From: a bacterium
GTDB lineage: Bacteria; Latescibacterota; Latescibacteria; Latescibacterales; Latescibacteraceae
Length of the DNA: 56,253 nucleotides
Assembly: GCA_021372535.1 (NCBI GenBank)
Contig: JAJFUH010000015.1
Location: 1-56,253, forward strand
Direction: 5' to 3'
Shown: one piece after another, positions 18,142-50,693 of the stretch
Numbering within the stretch: the stretch's first letter is position 1
Layout of the letters: each line of letters starts with the position of its first letter
Notes under the pieces: generated by a model
Databases searched by the model: none
Told to the model about the DNA's origin: nothing
The model's input: the letters and a program-made list of their open reading frames with translations, nothing else
Made by a program: the position numbers and the translations under genes

Positions 18142-19818
18142 TCAGGGTCTGAAGCGGTTGGTAAGCGGAAGCCTGCGGTCGCGGCCAAAAGCGCGCGGAG
18201 TTATCTTGACCCCGGGCGGGGCCTGACGGCGCTTGTATTCGGAGCGGTCGCTGATTCTGACCACCTTCTGTACCATTTCACGGTCGAATCCCATCGCGAC
18301 AATGTCCTCGATACCTTGGTCTTCCTCGATATAAGCCTTGATAATGGGATCGAGGACAGGGTATTCTGGCAGGGAGTCGGAATCCTTCTGGTCGGGCCGC
18401 AGCTCGGCAGAAGGAGCGCGCGTGATGATGCTCTCCGGTATTATCTCTCGTCCCGCCTGGCTGTTTACAAGCCTGCTGATCCGGAAAACGGTCGTTTTGG
18501 GAACATCCTTGATCACCGCGAAACCGCCTGCCATATCGCCATACAGGGTTGCATACCCGGTCGCCATCTCGCTCTTGTTCCCCGTCGTGAGCACAAGCCA
18601 CCCGAATTTGTTCGAAAGCGCCATGAGCAGTGTCCCGCGAATCCGCGCCTGAATATTTTCCTCGGTGACATCCTGTCCGTATCCCCTGAAAGCATCGGCA
18701 AGCGACTCGTTGAACGCCCCGAAAATCGGTGAAATGGGTATCTCCATGAACCGTATGCCGAGATTATCCGCCAATATCCCGGCATCGGAACGTGTTCCGG
18801 TCGATGTATACTGCGAGGGCATGGTCACCCCGATAACGTTCTCAGCGCCGAGAGCATGAACGGCGATTGCCGCCACGAGCGCCGAATCGATACCTCCGGA
18901 AAGCCCGATAACGACCTTCGAGAAACCGTTCTTGAGAATATAGTCGCGGGTACCGAGCACAAGCGCTTCGAGTATTTCCTCGTCATGGGTGAGCGCGCGT
19001 GAGATAATCGGTTCGACCGGCGGCTTTTTGTGAACATGGAGACCGATGCGGGCGGATGCCATGTGTCCGCCGGGAGCGGGTCCGGAAAATTCCATGTCGA
19101 AGGTCGCGAGCGTTTCGACAAATGCCGGGGCTTTATGGATATAGTTGCCGTCCCTGTCGAAAACCAGCGAGCCTCCGTCGAACACGATCTCGTCCTGACC
19201 GCCGACAAGATTCACGTAGACAATGGCAGCGCCGCCTGTGGATGATCGTTTTCTGAGAAGCTCCTCACGTTCATGGACTTTTCCGGCATGGAACGGGGAC
19301 GCGGACAGGTTGAGCAGCATATCCACGCGATGATCGCCCATGAGGGTACCATAAGGGCCGTTTTCCACCCATATGTCCTCGCAGATGTTCAACCCGATAC
19401 CCACCGTGCCGAGCATGAACGAGACGGGCTGGCTTCCGGGCGTGAAATACCGTTTCTCGTCGAAAACACCATAATTGGGCAGGAACATCTTATGGTATAC
19501 GGAGTATATGGTTTTTCCGGAGATCACCGCGGCGGCGTTATAGACCGGCCCGACACCGTCCACGAATCCTATGACGGCGCAGATATCGGTAACACCGTCC
19601 GCAAACCGCTCGATGGCAGTGCGGCATCGTTTGAGAAAACCCGGCTTGAGCAGGAGGTCTTCCGGGGGATACCCGGTAACGGCGAGTTCGGGGAAAACCA
19701 CAAGGTCGCTTCCACGTTCGGCCGCTGCGGCAACAGCCTCGAGACACCGGTCGACATTGCCTTCCAGATCACCGACCGTGGGATTTATCTGCCCTATGGT
19801 TATTCTCAGTCCTCTCAT
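18142..19818 (-). CDS. nadE: Glutamine-dependent NAD+ synthetase
   Basis: 558 residues from ATG 19818, where MRGLRITIGQINPTVGDLEG begins as in the family; the 20 codons upstream are AT-rich and unrelated. The N-terminal nitrilase-type amidase domain (1-260) has the catalytic Glu in VFPELAVTGYPPEDLL, Lys in YHKMFLPNYGVFDE and Cys in LNICEDIW. The C-terminal synthetase domain (about 280-558) has the ATP pyrophosphatase loop GLSGGIDSALVAAIAV. It makes NAD+ from deamido-NAD+, ATP and glutamine in the cytoplasm. Single-gene two-domain form, full length. A tight stop/ATG overlap at 18142 leads into a short unassigned frame. Confidence 0.96.
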   Translation of the reverse strand: MRGLRITIGQINPTVGDLEGNVDRCLEAVAAAAERGSDLVVFPELAVTGYPPEDLLLKPGFLKRCRTAIERFADGVTDICAVIGFVDGVGPVYNAAAVISGKTIYSVYHKMFLPNYGVFDEKRYFTPGSQPVSFMLGTVGIGLNICEDIWVENGPYGTLMGDHRVDMLLNLSASPFHAGKVHEREELLRKRSSTGGAAIVYVNLVGGQDEIVFDGGSLVFDRDGNYIHKAPAFVETLATFDMEFSGPAPGGHMASARIGLHVHKKPPVEPIISRALTHDEEILEALVLGTRDYILKNGFSKVVIGLSGGIDSALVAAIAVHALGAENVIGVTMPSQYTSTGTRSDAGILADNLGIRFMEIPISPIFGAFNESLADAFRGYGQDVTEENIQARIRGTLLMALSNKFGWLVLTTGNKSEMATGYATLYGDMAGGFAVIKDVPKTTVFRISRLVNSQAGREIIPESIITRAPSAELRPDQKDSDSLPEYPVLDPIIKAYIEEDQGIEDIVAMGFDREMVQKVVRISDRSEYKRRQAPPGVKITPRAFGRDRRLPLTNRFRP

Positions 19819-20067
19819 GATAAAAATATAAAAATGAAAACAGATATTTACAACATAATTCCTTTTATAAAGTAGCAAAGGAACAGAGAGGCAGAGAGAC
19901 TTAGAGGTAAGTATATCATGTATACGAATCCTGTTTTATCTTGTCCTTACACGTTAAAATCCGTACATTTATTCCCGGATACGGCGATAAAATTTGGGGG
20001 AACTTATAATGTTTTTCGTCGTGTTATTATGATACGGGTTGTGACGAAATCATTGGGAGGATATTCG

Positions 20068-21111
20068 ATGAAAAGGGAAAATCTGCTCTATGGCATCGGA
20101 ATTGCCACAGCAGCTCTCGGAGCAGCGGAAATCGTTCTGAGGCTTAAAGACCGTGCGGCTTCCAGAACCCGTTTTCACCGCGAACGGTGGACGATGGAGC
20201 GGCCGTGGGAACGGTTCGATCCCTGTTCAGGCTGGGAATTGATCCCGGGGTTTGTTTCCGGGGATATCCGGATTAACCACCATGGTTTTCGCGGGCCGGA
20301 GCTTATCAAAGGTGACATGACCCGGATACTGTGTCTCGGCGACGCAACGACTTTCGGTCCTTCCGGAGAGAAAAATCCCTATCCTCAAATCGTTCAGACC
20401 ATGCTTGCCAAACGGCGCACGAGCCGTCCCGTCGAGGTTATAAACGCGGGTGTCTGCGGCCATTCGACAAGCAATATGATCTTCAGAATTCAGCATCTTC
20501 TGGGGTTCAAACCGGATATCGTCATAGTATATGCAGGATGGAACGATCTTTTCAACGAGCCGGTCGACCGGTACTGTGACAACCGTCTCCCCTACAGCTC
20601 ATACTGGCATACTCTCTCGCAGAAAAACATAAGGTTTCATCTCGCGGCAAAAATCCGTGAAATCGCCGGGTACGAGAACCGTAAACCGATTCCCCTTACC
20701 TATACGCCCGATGAATTCGTTCCCTTCAATTTCGAATACAACCTCTCACTCATTATTTCAGAGATACGGAAGGCATCCGCGTTGCCGGTGCTCCTGACCC
20801 TCCCGAAGCTGATACCGGATTCCCTTTCCCGACCGGATGACCCGGACATTTCCGCAGCGACTCTGCCCGATTTTATCGAGGATGAAAACTTTGGGGATTT
20901 CCTGAAAGTATACCATGCTTACGACACGATCATCAGGCAGATTGCCACGGAGACAGATACCTTTCTTTTCGATGCGGCGGCGGTTTTCGAAACCATGAAA
21001 AAAGGCCGGGCCGGGTATTTCGAGGATACACGGCACCTTACTCCCGAAGGATACCGTGTGCTCGGAGAATTTATCGCACAATCGCTTGTCGGGAAGGACA
21101 TCGTTCAATGA
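20068..21111 (+). CDS. SGNH/GDSL-hydrolase-like protein lacking the nucleophile serine
   Basis: 347 residues from ATG 20068 behind GGGAGGA; the 50 codons upstream in frame are rejected. An N-terminal hydrophobic stretch (about 7-25) suggests a membrane anchor or uncleaved signal. SGNH blocks are visible: block I is LGDATTFG (residues 90-97), with Ala93 where the nucleophile Ser of GDS is expected; block II Gly in NAGVCGHST; block III GWND (157-160); block V DTRHLTPEG (Asp320, His323). The Ser to Ala change argues against normal esterase activity unless another residue substitutes. It overlaps the next gene by four bases (ATGA), so the two are translationally coupled. Confidence 0.75.
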   Translation: MKRENLLYGIGIATAALGAAEIVLRLKDRAASRTRFHRERWTMERPWERFDPCSGWELIPGFVSGDIRINHHGFRGPELIKGDMTRILCLGDATTFGPSGEKNPYPQIVQTMLAKRRTSRPVEVINAGVCGHSTSNMIFRIQHLLGFKPDIVIVYAGWNDLFNEPVDRYCDNRLPYSSYWHTLSQKNIRFHLAAKIREIAGYENRKPIPLTYTPDEFVPFNFEYNLSLIISEIRKASALPVLLTLPKLIPDSLSRPDDPDISAATLPDFIEDENFGDFLKVYHAYDTIIRQIATETDTFLFDAAAVFETMKKGRAGYFEDTRHLTPEGYRVLGEFIAQSLVGKDIVQ

Positions 21112-22007
21112 AAAAAATATGCGTCGCCGTCTCGCTGCTCCTCCTGACAATACTCTGGTTATGCCCCGTTGATTCGTTCGGCGGCGAGCTGACCATCGTT
21201 TATACAGCAAACAGCCAGGGGAAACTCAGGGAGTGCGGATGCCCCGGCGACCCGTACGGCGGTCTATCGGAGCGGGTTACCCTCATCAAAAAGCTCCGTG
21301 AAAAGGAACCGCCCTTTCTCCTCGTCGACAGCGGGAACATGGTGAGCCTTTACGGTGACTACAAGTTAAAGACAACGACCATTGCAAAGATCATGAATCT
21401 CATGAAGTACGATGCCGCAGGAATCGGTCAGCTCGAAATGTATCACGGTGTCGACAACGCGCTGGAAATGGCCGGCAGCGCGCAATTTACCCTGCTTTCC
21501 TCTTCGATCGTCCGGATGAATACCGCCACCCCCGTTTTCAAATCGTACATGACACGCACGATCGGGGGGCAAACCGCCGGAATTATCTCGGTCTGCGATA
21601 CCACGTGTTTCCTGACCACTGAATCGATAAAGCCGGATTTTTCACTTCTTCCGTTCGACCGCTCCCTTAAACCCGTTCTCGGCGATCTCAGGAAAAAAGT
21701 CGACTTCATCATCGTTCTCTCCCACATGGAAACCGGTTCAAACAAGCGTCTGCTTGCCGATTACCCCGAAATAGATATTGTCGTTCAGGGCTACAGCAAC
21801 GACCGTCTCGAAACGCCATACCGCTCTCAACATGGAATCCTCGTCGCGCCGGGTGCGCGGGGACAGTTCGTCGGCCTTGTCACGCTCTCGCGAACGGCTG
21901 ACGGTGTTCTTGATATCAGGCGCTCAGAGCTCATTCCGGTTCTCGATGTGCCCGAGGATAAAAAAGCCGCCGACCTTGTCACCTCCTATTACAGGGGCAT
22001 GAAATAA
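21108..22007 (+). CDS. Secreted metallophosphatase/5'-nucleotidase-like protein, metal ligands degenerate
   Basis: 299 residues with a cleavable signal peptide (VAVSLLLLTILWLCPVDSFG). The order of elements follows the 5'-nucleotidase metallophosphatase fold, but most metal ligands are replaced: TANSQG where D-x-H-G is expected, IGQLEMY instead of GNHEFD, and VQGYSND instead of GGHSH. The Asp in LLVDSGN and His in VLSHM remain. A CGCPGDPYGG motif after the first strand recurs in a known exported subgroup of this superfamily. Catalysis is therefore doubtful. The start overlaps the stop of the SGNH-like gene, which has also lost its key residue. Confidence 0.7.
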   Translation: MKKICVAVSLLLLTILWLCPVDSFGGELTIVYTANSQGKLRECGCPGDPYGGLSERVTLIKKLREKEPPFLLVDSGNMVSLYGDYKLKTTTIAKIMNLMKYDAAGIGQLEMYHGVDNALEMAGSAQFTLLSSSIVRMNTATPVFKSYMTRTIGGQTAGIISVCDTTCFLTTESIKPDFSLLPFDRSLKPVLGDLRKKVDFIIVLSHMETGSNKRLLADYPEIDIVVQGYSNDRLETPYRSQHGILVAPGARGQFVGLVTLSRTADGVLDIRRSELIPVLDVPEDKKAADLVTSYYRGMK

Positions 22008-22250: not shown

Positions 22251-22676
22251 TTATTCCTGCTCACCGGAAAACACTTTCTTCTTGACCCATAATGCTACTG
22301 CCGCAAGTATGACGATGATAATAAGTATTTTCCACCAGCCGCCTGTTGCTCTGACCTGTTCACCGGAATCATCGACACCGTATTTTACCTGAAGTGTATC
22401 GCCATCGGCAACACCATATGATGCAAGGGTTTTCATATTGTCAAGCTCGGCAGCGTTTTTAAACATTCTCTGGTTTCCCACATGGATTTCCGTGACATTG
22501 TATACGAATTCCTTGACACGGAGAACCGTATCTTCGGGCACGGCTTCGACCGTGACAACCTGTGCGGTCGGCAAAGCAACTTTAATTGTCATGCAAAAGG
22601 CTCCAGTTACCCCGCTCAAGGCAAAAAGAACAATGGCCACTAAAAGAATCCGGCATGTCTGCCTTTTTACCCCCAT
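22251..22676 (-). CDS. Membrane-anchored extracytoplasmic ubiquitin-like protein
   Basis: 141 residues from ATG 22676, behind AGGAGGGG. Residues 9-26 form a signal peptide (RILLVAIVLFALSGVTGA). Residues 29-99 align along their length with ubiquitin: MTIKV for the first strand, TVEAVPEDTVLRVKEFV for strand 2 and helix 1, and NQRMFKNAAELDN plus KTLASYGVADGDTLQVKY for strands 3-5. Residues 114-131 (WWKILIIIVILAAVALWV) are a membrane helix, followed by a basic tail (KKKVF). So the domain should face the periplasm, or the outside, with a one-pass anchor. No C-terminal diglycine for conjugation is present. Function unknown. It lies downstream of the hsp20 pair but after their terminator. Confidence 0.75.
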   Translation of the reverse strand: MGVKRQTCRILLVAIVLFALSGVTGAFCMTIKVALPTAQVVTVEAVPEDTVLRVKEFVYNVTEIHVGNQRMFKNAAELDNMKTLASYGVADGDTLQVKYGVDDSGEQVRATGGWWKILIIIVILAAVALWVKKKVFSGEQE

Positions 22677-22858
22677 GGTTCCCCTCCTGTGTGAAACGTT
22701 AAGAATATATGAGATTACATGTTCCATGGCTGTCTACAGGTGTTGCAACGTTGTAGCAGTCCTGATCCATGCAATCACTGGTAATAAGCATTTTAAAAAC
22801 GCCCCCATAGAATAATACATTTTCATGCTTTTGTGAAAAGTTTTTTTGCGAATTCGAT

Positions 22859-22887
22859 AAAAAAAGGGCAGAACCTGTGTTCTGCCC
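22859..22887 (-). terminator. Rho-independent terminator of the hsp20 operon
   Basis: On the minus strand GGGCAGAAC pairs with GTTCTGCCC across a four-base loop (22866-22874 with 22879-22887) and is followed by seven T. It lies 29 bases past the stop of the second hsp20 gene. Confidence 0.88.
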
Positions 22888-22915: not shown

Positions 22916-23356
22916 TTAATTGACTTCAACAGAGATTTCTTTGGGTAAAGCTTTCTCTGTTTTTGCAAGAGTCACCGTCAGCACACCATCCTTGTACTTT
23001 GCGGATATCTTGCCCGTATCGACAGTATCGGAGAGAGCGAACGACCGCTCAAACTTGCCGTAATGCCGTTCAAGCCTGCAGCATTCGGCATCTTCGGTCT
23101 TCTTCTCCTGTTTACGCTCTCCGGAGATGGTGAGAAGGTTATCCTTTACCTCAACCTTGACATCCTTTTTGTCGATACCCGGAAGTTCGGCATCGATAAC
23201 GAGGTCTTTGTCCGTCTCATTAATGTCGACCCTCGGGCTCCAGGTTACATCGGATGCACCTTCGTACCGCGGCCATCCGTAAAAGAATTTTTCAACAAAA
23301 TCATCGAGGGACGGTCCCCTTAGTAAGCCTCTGTTTCCCCAAAGTTCCGGTAACAT
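22916..23356 (-). CDS. Hsp20/alpha-crystallin small heat shock protein 1
   Basis: 146 residues from ATG 23356, behind AAGGAGGTG; the GTG three codons upstream overlaps the ribosome site and is rejected. The alpha-crystallin domain spans about 43-146: WSPRVDINETDKDLVIDAEL, PGIDKKDVKVEVKDNLLTIS, then the closing YKDGVLTVTLAK with the conserved G-V-L motif. Cytoplasmic ATP-independent holdase that keeps unfolding proteins soluble. An adjacent CC pair (DAECCRLE) is unusual for the family. Second gene of a two-gene operon driven from the sigma-54-type promoter at 23849. Confidence 0.93.
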   Translation of the reverse strand: MLPELWGNRGLLRGPSLDDFVEKFFYGWPRYEGASDVTWSPRVDINETDKDLVIDAELPGIDKKDVKVEVKDNLLTISGERKQEKKTEDAECCRLERHYGKFERSFALSDTVDTGKISAKYKDGVLTVTLAKTEKALPKEISVEVN

Positions 23357-23420
23357 GGTGAACACCTCCTTATATAACGTTTATAATTGTTTGTGTGATT
23401 GTTATGTTGTTTGGTTACGG

Positions 23421-23795
23421 TTACTTGATCTCGATTGTACGAGGTTTTGCCTCTTCTTTTTTATCGATTTTCAGCGTCAGAACACCCTGTTCATAAGTGG
23501 CTTTCACATGTTCGCCGTCGGCATATTCGGGCAGCCTGAACGTCCGCGAAAAAGCTCCCGAAGGCCTTTCGTAATGAGTGAAATAATTGTTCTCATTGTC
23601 CTCGGCACGTTTCCTTTCGCCACTCACCGTAAGCAGGTTCTCATGAACCTTGACATTCAGATCGTCTTTGTTGAATCCCGGCGCATCGAACACGAGGGAA
23701 AAACCATCCGATTTTTCAATGATATCAACCGGTATATTCCACCCGTCGCTCGCTGTTCTGTTCTGTGAAGTCGGTATAAATCGTACTAATGTCAT
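23421..23795 (-). CDS. Hsp20/alpha-crystallin small heat shock protein 2
   Basis: 124 residues from ATG 23795, behind AAAGGAGGA. It is shorter than its neighbour because the N-terminal arm is only about 18 residues. The alpha-crystallin domain shows WNIPVDIIEKSDGFSLVFDA, PGFNKDDLNVKVHENLLTVS, GERKRAE and YEQGVLTLKIDKK. A short N-terminal arm may change oligomer size or partner choice. It is the promoter-proximal gene; the second hsp20 starts 64 bases downstream, so the pair likely forms mixed or paired chaperone assemblies as in other two-Hsp20 systems. Confidence 0.93.
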   Translation of the reverse strand: MTLVRFIPTSQNRTASDGWNIPVDIIEKSDGFSLVFDAPGFNKDDLNVKVHENLLTVSGERKRAEDNENNYFTHYERPSGAFSRTFRLPEYADGEHVKATYEQGVLTLKIDKKEEAKPRTIEIK

Positions 23796-46825: not shown

Positions 46826-48670
46826 ATGGGAAATCAGAATACGTTTCTGGATGAAATACGCAGCACCGTACTGATTGGGGACGGTGCTATCGGCACAGAG
46901 CTGTTCGCCCGTGGAGCCAGCCTCAACACCGGCGTGGAACGGTTGAATCTTCTGGCCCCGGATATGGTGCTGGAACTCCACAAGGATTATGTCGCGGCAG
47001 GCAGCAGAGTCATCGAGACGAATACATTCGGCGCTAACAGGCTGAATCTGGAAAAATACGGGGCGGGCCACGAAGCCCGTGATATCATTGCCGCCGGGGT
47101 AAAACTGGCGCGAAAGGCCGCCGGTAAAAACATCTATGTGGCCGGTTCGGTCGGCCCCCTGCCGCTCATCGAAGGCGAGCCCTTATCGGATTCAGAACAG
47201 GACTCATTGTTTTCGGATCAGATAACCGCTCTACAGGAGAGCGGAGTCGATCTCCTCATCTTCGAAACATTCATTGATCTCAATCAACTCCTGAGAGCGC
47301 TTGCCTTGGCGCGGTCGTTGACAGGTATCCCGATAATCGCCCAGATGGCTTTCGAGAGCGGGGGACGGACGGCGAGCGGCGACAGCGCTGAACAATTCCT
47401 CCAATCCTGTATCAAAGCCGGTGCCGATGTCGTGGGGGCGAATTGCGGCAGCGGGGTACAGTCGGTTGTCGATGCTATCGGAACAATCGCCCCGTTCGGC
47501 ATACCCATGAGCGCATACATGAATGCAGGATTCGCCGAGCGGATCGAGGATCGGTTCATCTATATCGCCCCCCATGATTATCTGGCAAAAAAAGCCGCCG
47601 AGCTCGTTCACAGCGGCGTCCGGCTTGTCGGCGGCTGCTGCGGCACTGGCCCCGATACCATAAGGGCCATTGTCAAAGCGCTTTCCGAGGGAAAGTATGT
47701 CGTTCCGGCCCCGATCCATGTCGAGGCCAGACCCGCAACAGGAATCGAAGCGCTTCCCGAACCGGCTGTATCGAAAATACCCGCGCCGCCGCACGGTATT
47801 CTCGTGGAGCTCGACCCCCCGAAACGTCCCGACATATCCGCACTCCTGAAAAGCGCCGAGACACTCAAAAAGGCCGGTGTTCAAGCCTTTACGCTCGCCG
47901 ACAATCCTCTCGCTTCCGTGCGGGTGGATGTTCTGACAGCGGCTGGAGCGCTCATGCAGAAAACGGGTATGCCGGTCATACCTCATCTCACAGGCCGTGA
48001 CCGTAACCGTATAGGCTTGCAGTCAACCATACTGGGCGCCCATGTGCTCGGCATACGGTCGCTGCTCTGTGTTACCGGCGATCCGATCCGGATGTACCAC
48101 GAAACAAACACCTCGGGCGTGTTCGATGTCACTTCGATCGGACTGGTAAAGCTCGTGTCGGAGTTCAACTCGGGGCAGCGGTTGAACGAACAGGGACATA
48201 CATCCTTTTCCATCGGCGTGGCGCTGAATCCCAATGTCCGCAGTATCGACGGGCAGATCGGAAAACTCCGGCGAAAAATCGACGCGGGGGCTCATTTCGT
48301 ACTCACCCAGCCGATTTTCGATATCGAACGTCTCGATACCCTGCAGGATGCGCTCGACAAGGCGCATATTCATATCCCGGTTTATATCGGCCTGATGCCG
48401 CTGAAATCCTCCGGCCAGGCGGATTATCTTCATTTCGAGGTGCCCGGTATTTACATTCCCGATACCATCCGTGAGCGTCTGGGGCGTTATACGGAGCCTG
48501 CCGACCAGCAGACGGAGGGGATCGCCATAGCACGGGAGCTTGTCGAGCGCATGGCGCCGCGGGTATACGGATTGTACCTGATTTCCTCGATGAACCGTGC
48601 GGAGCCGCTTCTTCCGGTCATCGAATCGATTCAGAGCCATGCGGTTTGGGGAAAGGAAATCAGCAAATAG
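46826..48670 (+). CDS. Bifunctional homocysteine S-methyltransferase / 5,10-methylenetetrahydrofolate reductase
   Basis: 614 residues. The N-terminal methyltransferase (1-290) has the zinc cysteines: GANCGSG (Cys207) and VGGCCGTG (Cys271, Cys272), with IGDGAIGTEL at the start. The C-terminal MTHFR domain (about 325-614) shows SIGVALNPN, GKLRRKIDAGAHFVLTQPIF and YIGLMPLKSSGQA. The reductase makes 5-methyl-THF and the methyltransferase passes a methyl group to homocysteine; in YitJ-type fusions the methyl donor of the first domain may be S-methylmethionine or methyl-THF. Cytoplasmic. Followed by thyX and a methyl-THF methyltransferase, all folate one-carbon enzymes. Confidence 0.92.
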   Translation: MGNQNTFLDEIRSTVLIGDGAIGTELFARGASLNTGVERLNLLAPDMVLELHKDYVAAGSRVIETNTFGANRLNLEKYGAGHEARDIIAAGVKLARKAAGKNIYVAGSVGPLPLIEGEPLSDSEQDSLFSDQITALQESGVDLLIFETFIDLNQLLRALALARSLTGIPIIAQMAFESGGRTASGDSAEQFLQSCIKAGADVVGANCGSGVQSVVDAIGTIAPFGIPMSAYMNAGFAERIEDRFIYIAPHDYLAKKAAELVHSGVRLVGGCCGTGPDTIRAIVKALSEGKYVVPAPIHVEARPATGIEALPEPAVSKIPAPPHGILVELDPPKRPDISALLKSAETLKKAGVQAFTLADNPLASVRVDVLTAAGALMQKTGMPVIPHLTGRDRNRIGLQSTILGAHVLGIRSLLCVTGDPIRMYHETNTSGVFDVTSIGLVKLVSEFNSGQRLNEQGHTSFSIGVALNPNVRSIDGQIGKLRRKIDAGAHFVLTQPIFDIERLDTLQDALDKAHIHIPVYIGLMPLKSSGQADYLHFEVPGIYIPDTIRERLGRYTEPADQQTEGIAIARELVERMAPRVYGLYLISSMNRAEPLLPVIESIQSHAVWGKEISK

Positions 48671-48789
48671 ATTACAGCGGATTTGCTATACCAGGACAAA
48701 CGATACCGCAGACATGAAGCACATGTATTATACATGCCTGTCATGCGGAATTATCTTGATAACAGGTATGATAAAATCCTAAATTAAGA

Positions 48790-48890
48790 GAGCGGTGAAA
48801 GGTGTCTTTTTCACACGCCCGATAATGAAATATATCGCCCGTTTTCTGTCAAGGGCATGTTAATCGGCACTTCGTGCAGCCCCTTGACAG
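48790..48890 (+). repeat. About 100-bp repeat unit left of thyX (inverted copy at 49773-49874)
   Basis: Starts with the hairpin AGCGGTGAAAGGTGTC / TTTTTCACACGCCC, continues with CGATAATGAAATATAT, and ends in TGTCAAGGG...AATCGGCACTTCGTGC...CCCTTGACAG, itself a stem-loop. The right-hand unit is its reverse complement at most positions by eye. The two units face each other around thyX. Confidence 0.75.
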
Positions 48891-48994
48891 CATAGATTCA
48901 CTCATACGGTGTTTTTCACCACGCTTTGTTAAGTGTGCAAATATTCTCGGTATATACAACATCCCGATACAACCATCCGGAAAAGTCGTATTCA

Positions 48995-49720
48995 ATGAAT
49001 CAGCCGAATATCAAGCTTCTCACATTCACCGCCGATGCGGAAAAACTTGTCTGCGCGGCGGCAAAACTCTGCTATGCCTCCGATCCCGGCACCATTTTCG
49101 ATAATTCCGGGGATGAGATACGGAAATTTCTGGCGCGGCTCAGAAGCATGGGACACCTGAGTCCTTTCGAACATGCCTCGTATACCTTCCTCCTTGAGGG
49201 AATTTCGCGGGCGCTCACTCACCAGCTCGTCCGTCACCGTATAGCCTCCTATTCACAGCGGAGCCAGCGGTATGTCTCGCATGATTCGTTCGACTACATC
49301 GTTCCGCCGAGTCTCAGGGGAAAAACGGTCGAAACGGAAGATGGCTGTGTTGACGCCGAAATATATTTCAGGGATTTCATGAAGCATGCGGCAGAGACCT
49401 ACCGTAGACTTTTAACCGCGCTCGGTGGTGAGCACGAATCGGCCATCGAGGATGCCCGGTATGTCCTTCCCAATGCGACCGAAACCAAAATCATGGTGAC
49501 CATGAATGCCCGAGAGCTGTTCCACTTTTTCGGCGAGCGGCTCTGCAACCGCGCCCAGTGGGAAATCAGAACCGCGGCGGATGGTATGCTCGTACAGGTA
49601 CGGGCGGTATCGCCCGTCATTTTCAGGGGTATCGGACCGAAATGCGTGCAGCTCGGTTATTGTCCCGAGGGGAAAATGTCCTGCGGCCGCATGAAAGAAA
49701 TGAGAGAACGGTATCAGTAA
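48995..49720 (+). CDS. thyX: Flavin-dependent thymidylate synthase ThyX
   Basis: 241 residues from ATG 48995, the usual ThyX length; the 23 extra upstream codons are not family-like. It converts dUMP to dTMP using methylene-THF and reduced FAD/NADPH. The signature RHRX7S is present (RHRIASYSQRS, Arg80 to Ser90) with SQRYVSHDSF directly after. SPFEHASYTFLLEGISRALTHQLVRHR and ARELFHFFGERLCNRAQWEI complete the active site. No thyA gene is visible in the window. The whole gene sits between two facing copies of a 100-bp repeat. Confidence 0.95.
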   Translation: MNQPNIKLLTFTADAEKLVCAAAKLCYASDPGTIFDNSGDEIRKFLARLRSMGHLSPFEHASYTFLLEGISRALTHQLVRHRIASYSQRSQRYVSHDSFDYIVPPSLRGKTVETEDGCVDAEIYFRDFMKHAAETYRRLLTALGGEHESAIEDARYVLPNATETKIMVTMNARELFHFFGERLCNRAQWEIRTAADGMLVQVRAVSPVIFRGIGPKCVQLGYCPEGKMSCGRMKEMRERYQ

Positions 49721-49772
49721 ACCACGAACCTGCGGAAGCGTGGTTATAAAACACGGTATATCAGGATAAAAG

Positions 49773-49874
49773 CTGTCAAGGGTCGGCACGAAGTGCCGAT
49801 TGACAAGCCATCAACAGCAACAAAACAATACATTTCATTATCGCGCGCGTGGAAATGATACTTTTTCACCGCCC
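49773..49874 (-). repeat. About 100-bp repeat unit right of thyX (inverted partner of 48790-48890)
   Basis: Begins CTGTCAAGGGTCGGCACGAA and ends in AAATGATACTTTTTCACC-GCCC, the reverse complement of the left unit's features: hairpin, ATAATGAAATG core, AATCGGCACTTCGTGC and CCCTTGACAG. It ends 7 bases before the AGGAG of the following gene. Confidence 0.75.
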
Positions 49875-49892
49875 TCACAGGAGAGAAACAGC

Positions 49893-50693
49893 ATGTTTAC
49901 AGTAATCGGCGAACGTATCAACATGACCCGTAAATCAATCCGGACAAAGGTATGGGAACGTGACGAAGCCTTCATCCGCGCCGAAGCAGCCCGTCAGGCA
50001 AACGCCGGCGCAACCCATATAGACATCAATGCCGGCGGCGACCCTTCCAAGGAAGTCGATGACATGAAATGGCTTGCCGGAGTCGTTTCCGACGAGGTGA
50101 GCATTCCGCTCTCGTTCGATTCGGCGAATCCGGAGGCGATCAGGGCGGGCCTGGAAATCTGCAACCGTCCCGGAACAATAGTCAACTCGATCACCATGGA
50201 AAAAGAGCGCGTCGGGGGCATCCTTCCTCTTGTTAAAGAATTCAACACCGGAGTAATCTGCCTGACCATGAACGACCAGGGGATGCCGGAAGACTACGAG
50301 GGCAGGGCGCGGATCACCGACGATGTCATTGCCATGTTCAACGCCAGCGGCCTGTCGCACGACCGGGCGTACTTCGACCACCTCGTCCGTCCCGCCTCGA
50401 CCAATCCCGGGCAGGCGCGGTTCATCCTCGATGCGGTGCGGTACACGAGGGAGACGTATCCGGAGGCGCACATCGCGCTCGGGCTCTCGAATATCTCGTT
50501 CGGCATTCCGAAACGCAACAACTTCAACCGGGCATTCCTTGCCATGCTCGTTGCCGCGGGTGCGGACGGCGCCATAATCGATCCGACCGAAGCCGACATG
50601 ATGATCACCCTCTGTTCGGCCCGTGCGGTCATGGGATACGACGAGTACTGCATGGGATACCTTGAAAAGATGCGGAGCGAAGGTCTGGCGTAA
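49893..50693 (+). CDS. Methyltetrahydrofolate:corrinoid methyltransferase (MeTr/AcsE-like, pterin-binding)
   Basis: 266 residues from ATG 49893, behind CAGGAG; the upstream 31 codons cross the repeat and are rejected. TIM-barrel pterin-binding family: VIGERINMTRKSI, the folate-binding GATHIDINAGG, LSFDSANPEAI, VNSITMEKER, and LSNISFGIPKRNNFN. MeTr moves the methyl of 5-methyl-THF to a corrinoid protein, in the Wood-Ljungdahl pathway or in methyl-transfer modules. No corrinoid protein, CODH/ACS or activase gene is visible nearby, so it could also be a stand-alone folate/corrinoid methyltransferase. Same strand as the MTHFR fusion and thyX. Confidence 0.88.
   Translation: MFTVIGERINMTRKSIRTKVWERDEAFIRAEAARQANAGATHIDINAGGDPSKEVDDMKWLAGVVSDEVSIPLSFDSANPEAIRAGLEICNRPGTIVNSITMEKERVGGILPLVKEFNTGVICLTMNDQGMPEDYEGRARITDDVIAMFNASGLSHDRAYFDHLVRPASTNPGQARFILDAVRYTRETYPEAHIALGLSNISFGIPKRNNFNRAFLAMLVAAGADGAIIDPTEADMMITLCSARAVMGYDEYCMGYLEKMRSEGLA

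Follow-up and report, generated by a model that had tools for sequence, protein, structure and literature searches.

The locus described here raises the question of what a ubiquitin-like protein with hydrophobic segments at both ends might be doing in a bacterium that shows no ubiquitin conjugation genes beside it. The gene lies in a 56,253-nucleotide stretch of Latescibacteraceae DNA, referred to here as the window. The reading that we favour, with a fair degree of confidence, is that it encodes a type I inner-membrane protein whose periplasmic ubiquitin-fold domain docks or scaffolds a partner non-covalently and is not a conjugated modifier.

The first-pass annotation had placed a 141-residue product at 22251-22676, which is correct; the strand, which it left unstated, is minus, with the ATG at 22676 and the stop ending at 22251, and a plus-strand reading of the same interval is ruled out by stops in frame. 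The features on which the following argument draws are:

22251-22676, minus strand: coding sequence of 141 aa, comprising signal, ubiquitin-like domain and membrane anchor (translation, orthologues, PF00240).
22593-22676, minus strand: predicted signal peptide, residues 1-28, with a basic start, a hydrophobic core and small-residue cleavage sites TGA/FC or AFC/M, the slash marking the cut (hydropathy, site rules, similar orthologue segments, Shine-Dalgarno-backed start).
22380-22592, minus strand: ubiquitin-like domain, residues 29-99 (PF00240, PDB sequence searches, alignment and shuffles).
22341-22379, minus strand: short polar linker, residues 100-112, joining the domain to the second hydrophobic segment (alignment).
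22281-22340, minus strand: predicted membrane anchor, residues 113-132 (hydropathy).
22254-22280, minus strand: basic tail, residues 133-141, KKVFSGEQE following K132, predicted cytoplasmic (orthologues also have K or R after the helix).
22683-22688, minus strand: Shine-Dalgarno sequence AGGAGG, 6 nt before the ATG at 22676.
22809-22839, minus strand: tentative sigma-70-type promoter candidate(s) of the ubiquitin-like gene, weak (9/12).
22866-22887, minus strand: terminator-like hairpin of 9 pairs with a T-run, 3' of the upstream Hsp20 gene and separating it from the ubiquitin-like gene.

The gene is real, and the end of the Hsp20 gene, the terminator-like hairpin and the weak promoter-like hexamers together indicate that it is probably transcribed on its own. 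The promoter candidates themselves are tentative, since hexamer counts were close to the shuffle expectation. Two other genomes, G007 and G008, carry orthologues, and upstream of the G007 gene a comparable hairpin, T-run included, was seen by eye. One orthologue, from the same genus as the window genome, is 50% identical to the window protein and the other, from a different genus of the same family, 38%, with overall identity to the window protein lying between 35 and 50%. Despite this low identity, both retain the layout of signal, ubiquitin-like domain and anchor together with a Shine-Dalgarno site of their own, so that the three parts proposed by the first-pass annotation are indeed conserved together.

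Membership of the ubiquitin superfamily is clear at the level of sequence. Pfam PF00240 matches residues 29-97 of the window protein with an E-value of 5.8e-9 and 36 bits, and the two orthologues with 43.1 and 36.4 bits, so that the curated cut-off of 25.4 bits is exceeded in all three; the YukD/EccD family, PF08817, reached 18.2 bits against the window protein, below its cut-off of 27. Residues 29-97 align without a gap to Met1-Leu69 of ubiquitin, and the first 72 positions contain 20 identities in the window protein and 25 and 19 in the orthologues. The similarity is far above chance by sequence comparison, with Smith-Waterman z-scores against 1000 shuffles of 12.7 for the window protein and 15.9 and 12.1 for the orthologues, and a profile of the three searched against the PDB retrieved single ubiquitins at about 1e-8 to 1e-9. 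Invariant in all three are the core positions M1, V5, D21, T22, V26, K27, Q41, L50, L56, Y59 and L67 (ubiquitin numbering). The assignment of the fold rests on this homology, because the quality of the AlphaFold models was too low either to confirm or to refute it: the whole protein, modelled from a single sequence, had a mean pLDDT of 57.8 (low confidence), while the domain, modelled from a two-sequence alignment without the G008 row, had a mean pLDDT of 50.0 (likewise low confidence) with an element order of E-E-H-E-E-h-E in register with ubiquitin. Foldseek placed ubiquitins at the top of its list for this weak second model, but at an E-value of 0.09 and a TM-score of 0.38, which is not significant.

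Flanking this non-hydrophobic domain are hydrophobic segments at residues 10-28 and 113-131, the second of which is followed by the tail KKKVFSGEQE; basic residues lie ahead of the first segment and behind the second. Over 113-131 the mean hydropathy is 2.36 in the window protein, and the anchors of the orthologues reach 2.98 and 3.07. The predicted export signal, C-terminal membrane helix and basic tail described in the first-pass annotation are supported by composition, and hydropathy and charge fit a type I membrane protein with a cleaved signal, one helix and a basic cytoplasmic tail. In G008 the first segment ends in a textbook RASA/M cleavage site, and in the window protein either TGA/FCM or AFC/M fits as the predicted site. 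In G007 the 19-residue mean hydropathy of the first segment falls below the threshold of 1.6, as would be expected of a cleavable signal more than of a transmembrane anchor. From composition, site rules and conservation we infer that the signal is cleaved and that the domain should lie in the periplasm. A lipoprotein was considered and rejected, as there is no lipobox before Cys28 (GAFC), and NCBIfam gave no match to C-terminal sorting signals such as PEP-CTERM or GlyGly-CTERM.

In the mechanism that we propose, a Sec signal would export the chain and be cleaved off either directly in front of the Met equivalent to ubiquitin Met1 or two residues earlier. The ubiquitin-fold domain would then sit in the periplasm about 13 residues from the membrane, held by one helix and the short basic cytoplasmic tail, and may dock or scaffold a membrane or periplasmic partner non-covalently. 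The recognition surface of ubiquitin is replaced in the three orthologues (L8 by P, P and S; I44 by F; V70 by K, T and H), and the invariant Phe44-Lys45 at the position of ubiquitin Ile44 hints at an altered binding face, a candidate for which would be rebuilt there together with Tyr31, Thr34-Glu35 and Asp63-Gly64. A membrane-tethered scaffold role is made plausible by the precedent of EccD5, a bacterial ubiquitin-like scaffold (PMC8232910). A broader proposal, which we offer more tentatively and hold at somewhat under even chances, is that the protein represents a new class of envelope protein in which a ubiquitin-derived domain without conjugation or recognition residues would serve as a membrane-tethered, periplasmic protein-recognition subunit.

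A first alternative is that the protein is the membrane precursor of a secreted antagonist or effector, from which proteolysis close to the anchor would later release the domain so that it can act on other cells, in the manner of the secreted BfUbb of Bacteroides fragilis. BfUbb also carries its signal, of the signal peptidase I type, exactly before ubiquitin Met1, has no terminal glycine and is active against other B. fragilis (PMC5705921, PMC3352274), and the feature of a predicted signal directly before Met1 is present in the window protein, where a hydrophobic segment with cleavage-type sites runs up to M29. However, mature BfUbb is a ubiquitin of 76 residues that has no anchor, whereas the anchor is kept in all three genomes here, and its 63% identity to human ubiquitin (PMC3352274) stands against 19-25 identities over 72 positions in the present proteins. 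We regard such an effector as unlikely.

Somewhat less likely still is a cytoplasmic tail-anchored protein, started at Met29 and with its domain facing the cytoplasm, like the TMUB or Dsc3-type proteins of the ER and Golgi. Met29 is invariant and aligned with ubiquitin Met1, and in the window GGAG precedes it by 8 nt; yet neither orthologue has a usable Shine-Dalgarno sequence before its internal Met, and the signal-like segment is kept in frame in all three. Duplex energies for the sequence before M1 are strong throughout (-11.4, -9.3 and -13.5 kcal/mol), as against weak or no pairing before the internal Met of the three genes (-5.6, -3.2 and -2.1 kcal/mol). The signal is therefore part of the protein, and with a start at M1 and not at Met29 the domain should be periplasmic. 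Ubiquitin Met1 is a buried residue of the fold, which explains the conservation of Met29.

If the preferred reading of a periplasmic docking module is set against conjugation through an unrecognised pathway, only the ubiquitin-family sequence itself speaks for the latter, and we consider it very improbable. As the first-pass annotation had noted, there is no conjugation diglycine: positions 75-76 read DS, TL and SG in the three orthologues, and the anchor comes next, so that there is no free C-terminus and a role as a covalent modifier is very unlikely. Lysines 48 and 63 are also replaced, the former by A, T and Q and the latter by D. Its statement that no E1, E2, E3 or JAB gene is adjacent holds for the neighbours, among which alone E1 and E3 were sought, and the predicted compartment lacks ATP. 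Searches for E2 and USP families in the four genomes of this bacterial family found nothing, which is weak evidence because the control genomes gave no hit either. Prok-JAB matched in controls and in two members of the family, G006 (L018, G006:C588:4880-5161) and G008 (L017, G008:C218:2807-3145), and was absent from the window genome (G000) and G007, so that JAB does not track the ubiquitin-like gene. The earlier preference for binding or scaffolding over conjugation stands as the best guess, although no partner was found.

Contamination from a eukaryote, or an open frame arisen by chance, might be suspected for a gene family so rare in bacteria (PF00240 exceeded its cut-off in 3/64 genomes of the phylum and 0/14 controls), but is scarcely credible for a gene with a Shine-Dalgarno site, surrounded by bacterial genes on a contig of 56 kb, and with orthologues in two other genomes that also lie amid bacterial genes. 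All three genomes belong to one family, the fourth genome of which (80% complete) yielded no orthologue, and a search of the other genomes among the phylum's 64 likewise gave none. No homologue was found among the viral contigs, phages and plasmids searched, and degenerate patterns designed on close relatives matched only the G007 relative across all GTDB species. Judged from these sequence searches, the protein appears to be lineage-specific within a few Latescibacterota.

The surroundings of the gene were compared among the three loci, as the first-pass annotation had proposed; conjugation genes were lacking nearby, and no neighbouring gene is common to all three. In the window the neighbours include a convergent secreted protein, two Hsp20 genes, a YegS/DAGK-type lipid kinase, a UDP-sugar dehydrogenase and an NAD synthase. 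The tandem Hsp20 small heat-shock genes lie just upstream (22916-23365 and 23421-23795, minus strand). The secreted protein (21108-22007, plus strand) has an ECGCPGDPYGG motif and no Pfam match up to an E-value of 0.01, and presumably resembles metallophosphatase/5'-nucleotidase-type proteins. The NAD synthase (18142-19878, minus strand) has a sub-threshold UBA-domain match near its C-terminus (19.5 bits for a cut-off of 22.4) that is probably coincidental. In G008 a lipid kinase lies upstream of the orthologue, and an oxidoreductase-like gene, of Gfo/Idh type by eye, starts 14 bp after it; in G007 a flavin reductase lies upstream and the surroundings differ. Although the DAGK gene is upstream in both the window genome and G008, we claim no functional link to DAGK or Hsp20, because G007 has the complete PfkB-DAGK-Hsp20-Hsp20 block on a different contig (L019), where the ubiquitin-like gene is absent and has left no convincing remnant. 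There is loose long-range synteny with a methyltransferase-like block, one gene of which looks ThyX-like by eye: about 3 kb separate it from the ubiquitin-like gene in G007 (L011, 1270-7618), and about 24 kb do so in the window (46826-50693). No type VII secretion genes were found among the neighbours examined, and PADLOC gave no match to a defence system.

How, then, does the protein stand among known ubiquitin-like systems? Bil/Bub-type operons, which likewise encode bacterial ubiquitin-like proteins, carry E1, E2 and JAB genes; the window gene has none adjacent, and the C-terminus of its product cannot be conjugated. The eukaryotic TMUB1/2, HERP and Dsc3 also combine a ubiquitin-like domain with C-terminal membrane anchoring, in the case of TMUB1/2 and Dsc3 through two C-terminal helices and within ligase complexes (PMC6669922); unlike these adaptors of ER and Golgi ubiquitin ligases, the window gene has no ligase system beside it. 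A bacterial comparison is offered by YukD and EccD of type VII secretion (PF08817), of which the first-pass annotation overlooked EccD: here too a bacterial ubiquitin fold is linked to the membrane, on the cytosolic side (PMC1779556, PMC8232910), and the membrane-linked domain of EccD5 serves as the non-covalent scaffold of a complex (PMC8232910). The domain of EccD is, however, cytosolic and fused to many helices, whereas the window protein is predicted to be exported and has a single anchor.

The nearest precedent is BfUbb, like the window protein a bacterial ubiquitin homologue with its signal placed at ubiquitin Met1 and no terminal glycine. It too was overlooked earlier. The interpretation given then, including the export signal, mostly holds, but an exported ubiquitin is already known in bacteria and we make no claim of novelty on that point. 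In contrast to BfUbb, which is soluble and thought to have been acquired by inter-kingdom transfer (PMC3352274, PMC5705921), the window protein is far more diverged, has a C-terminal helix anchor and is common to several genera of one family. In the open-access literature we found no description of a bacterial protein consisting of a signal, a ubiquitin-like domain and a single helix, and what is new is the union of these traits in a ubiquitin-fold protein that is diverged, exported and held by a single anchor, and that is common within a bacterial family. If our reading is correct, the ubiquitin family proper, and not only the loosely related ThiS, MoaD and YukD domains, would have a non-covalent role in bacteria, exerted at the outer face of the inner membrane and retained in at least two genera-level groups within a single family. 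With BfUbb there would then be two exported ubiquitin-type proteins known from bacteria, and the layout of the present one opens a tethered function to testing.
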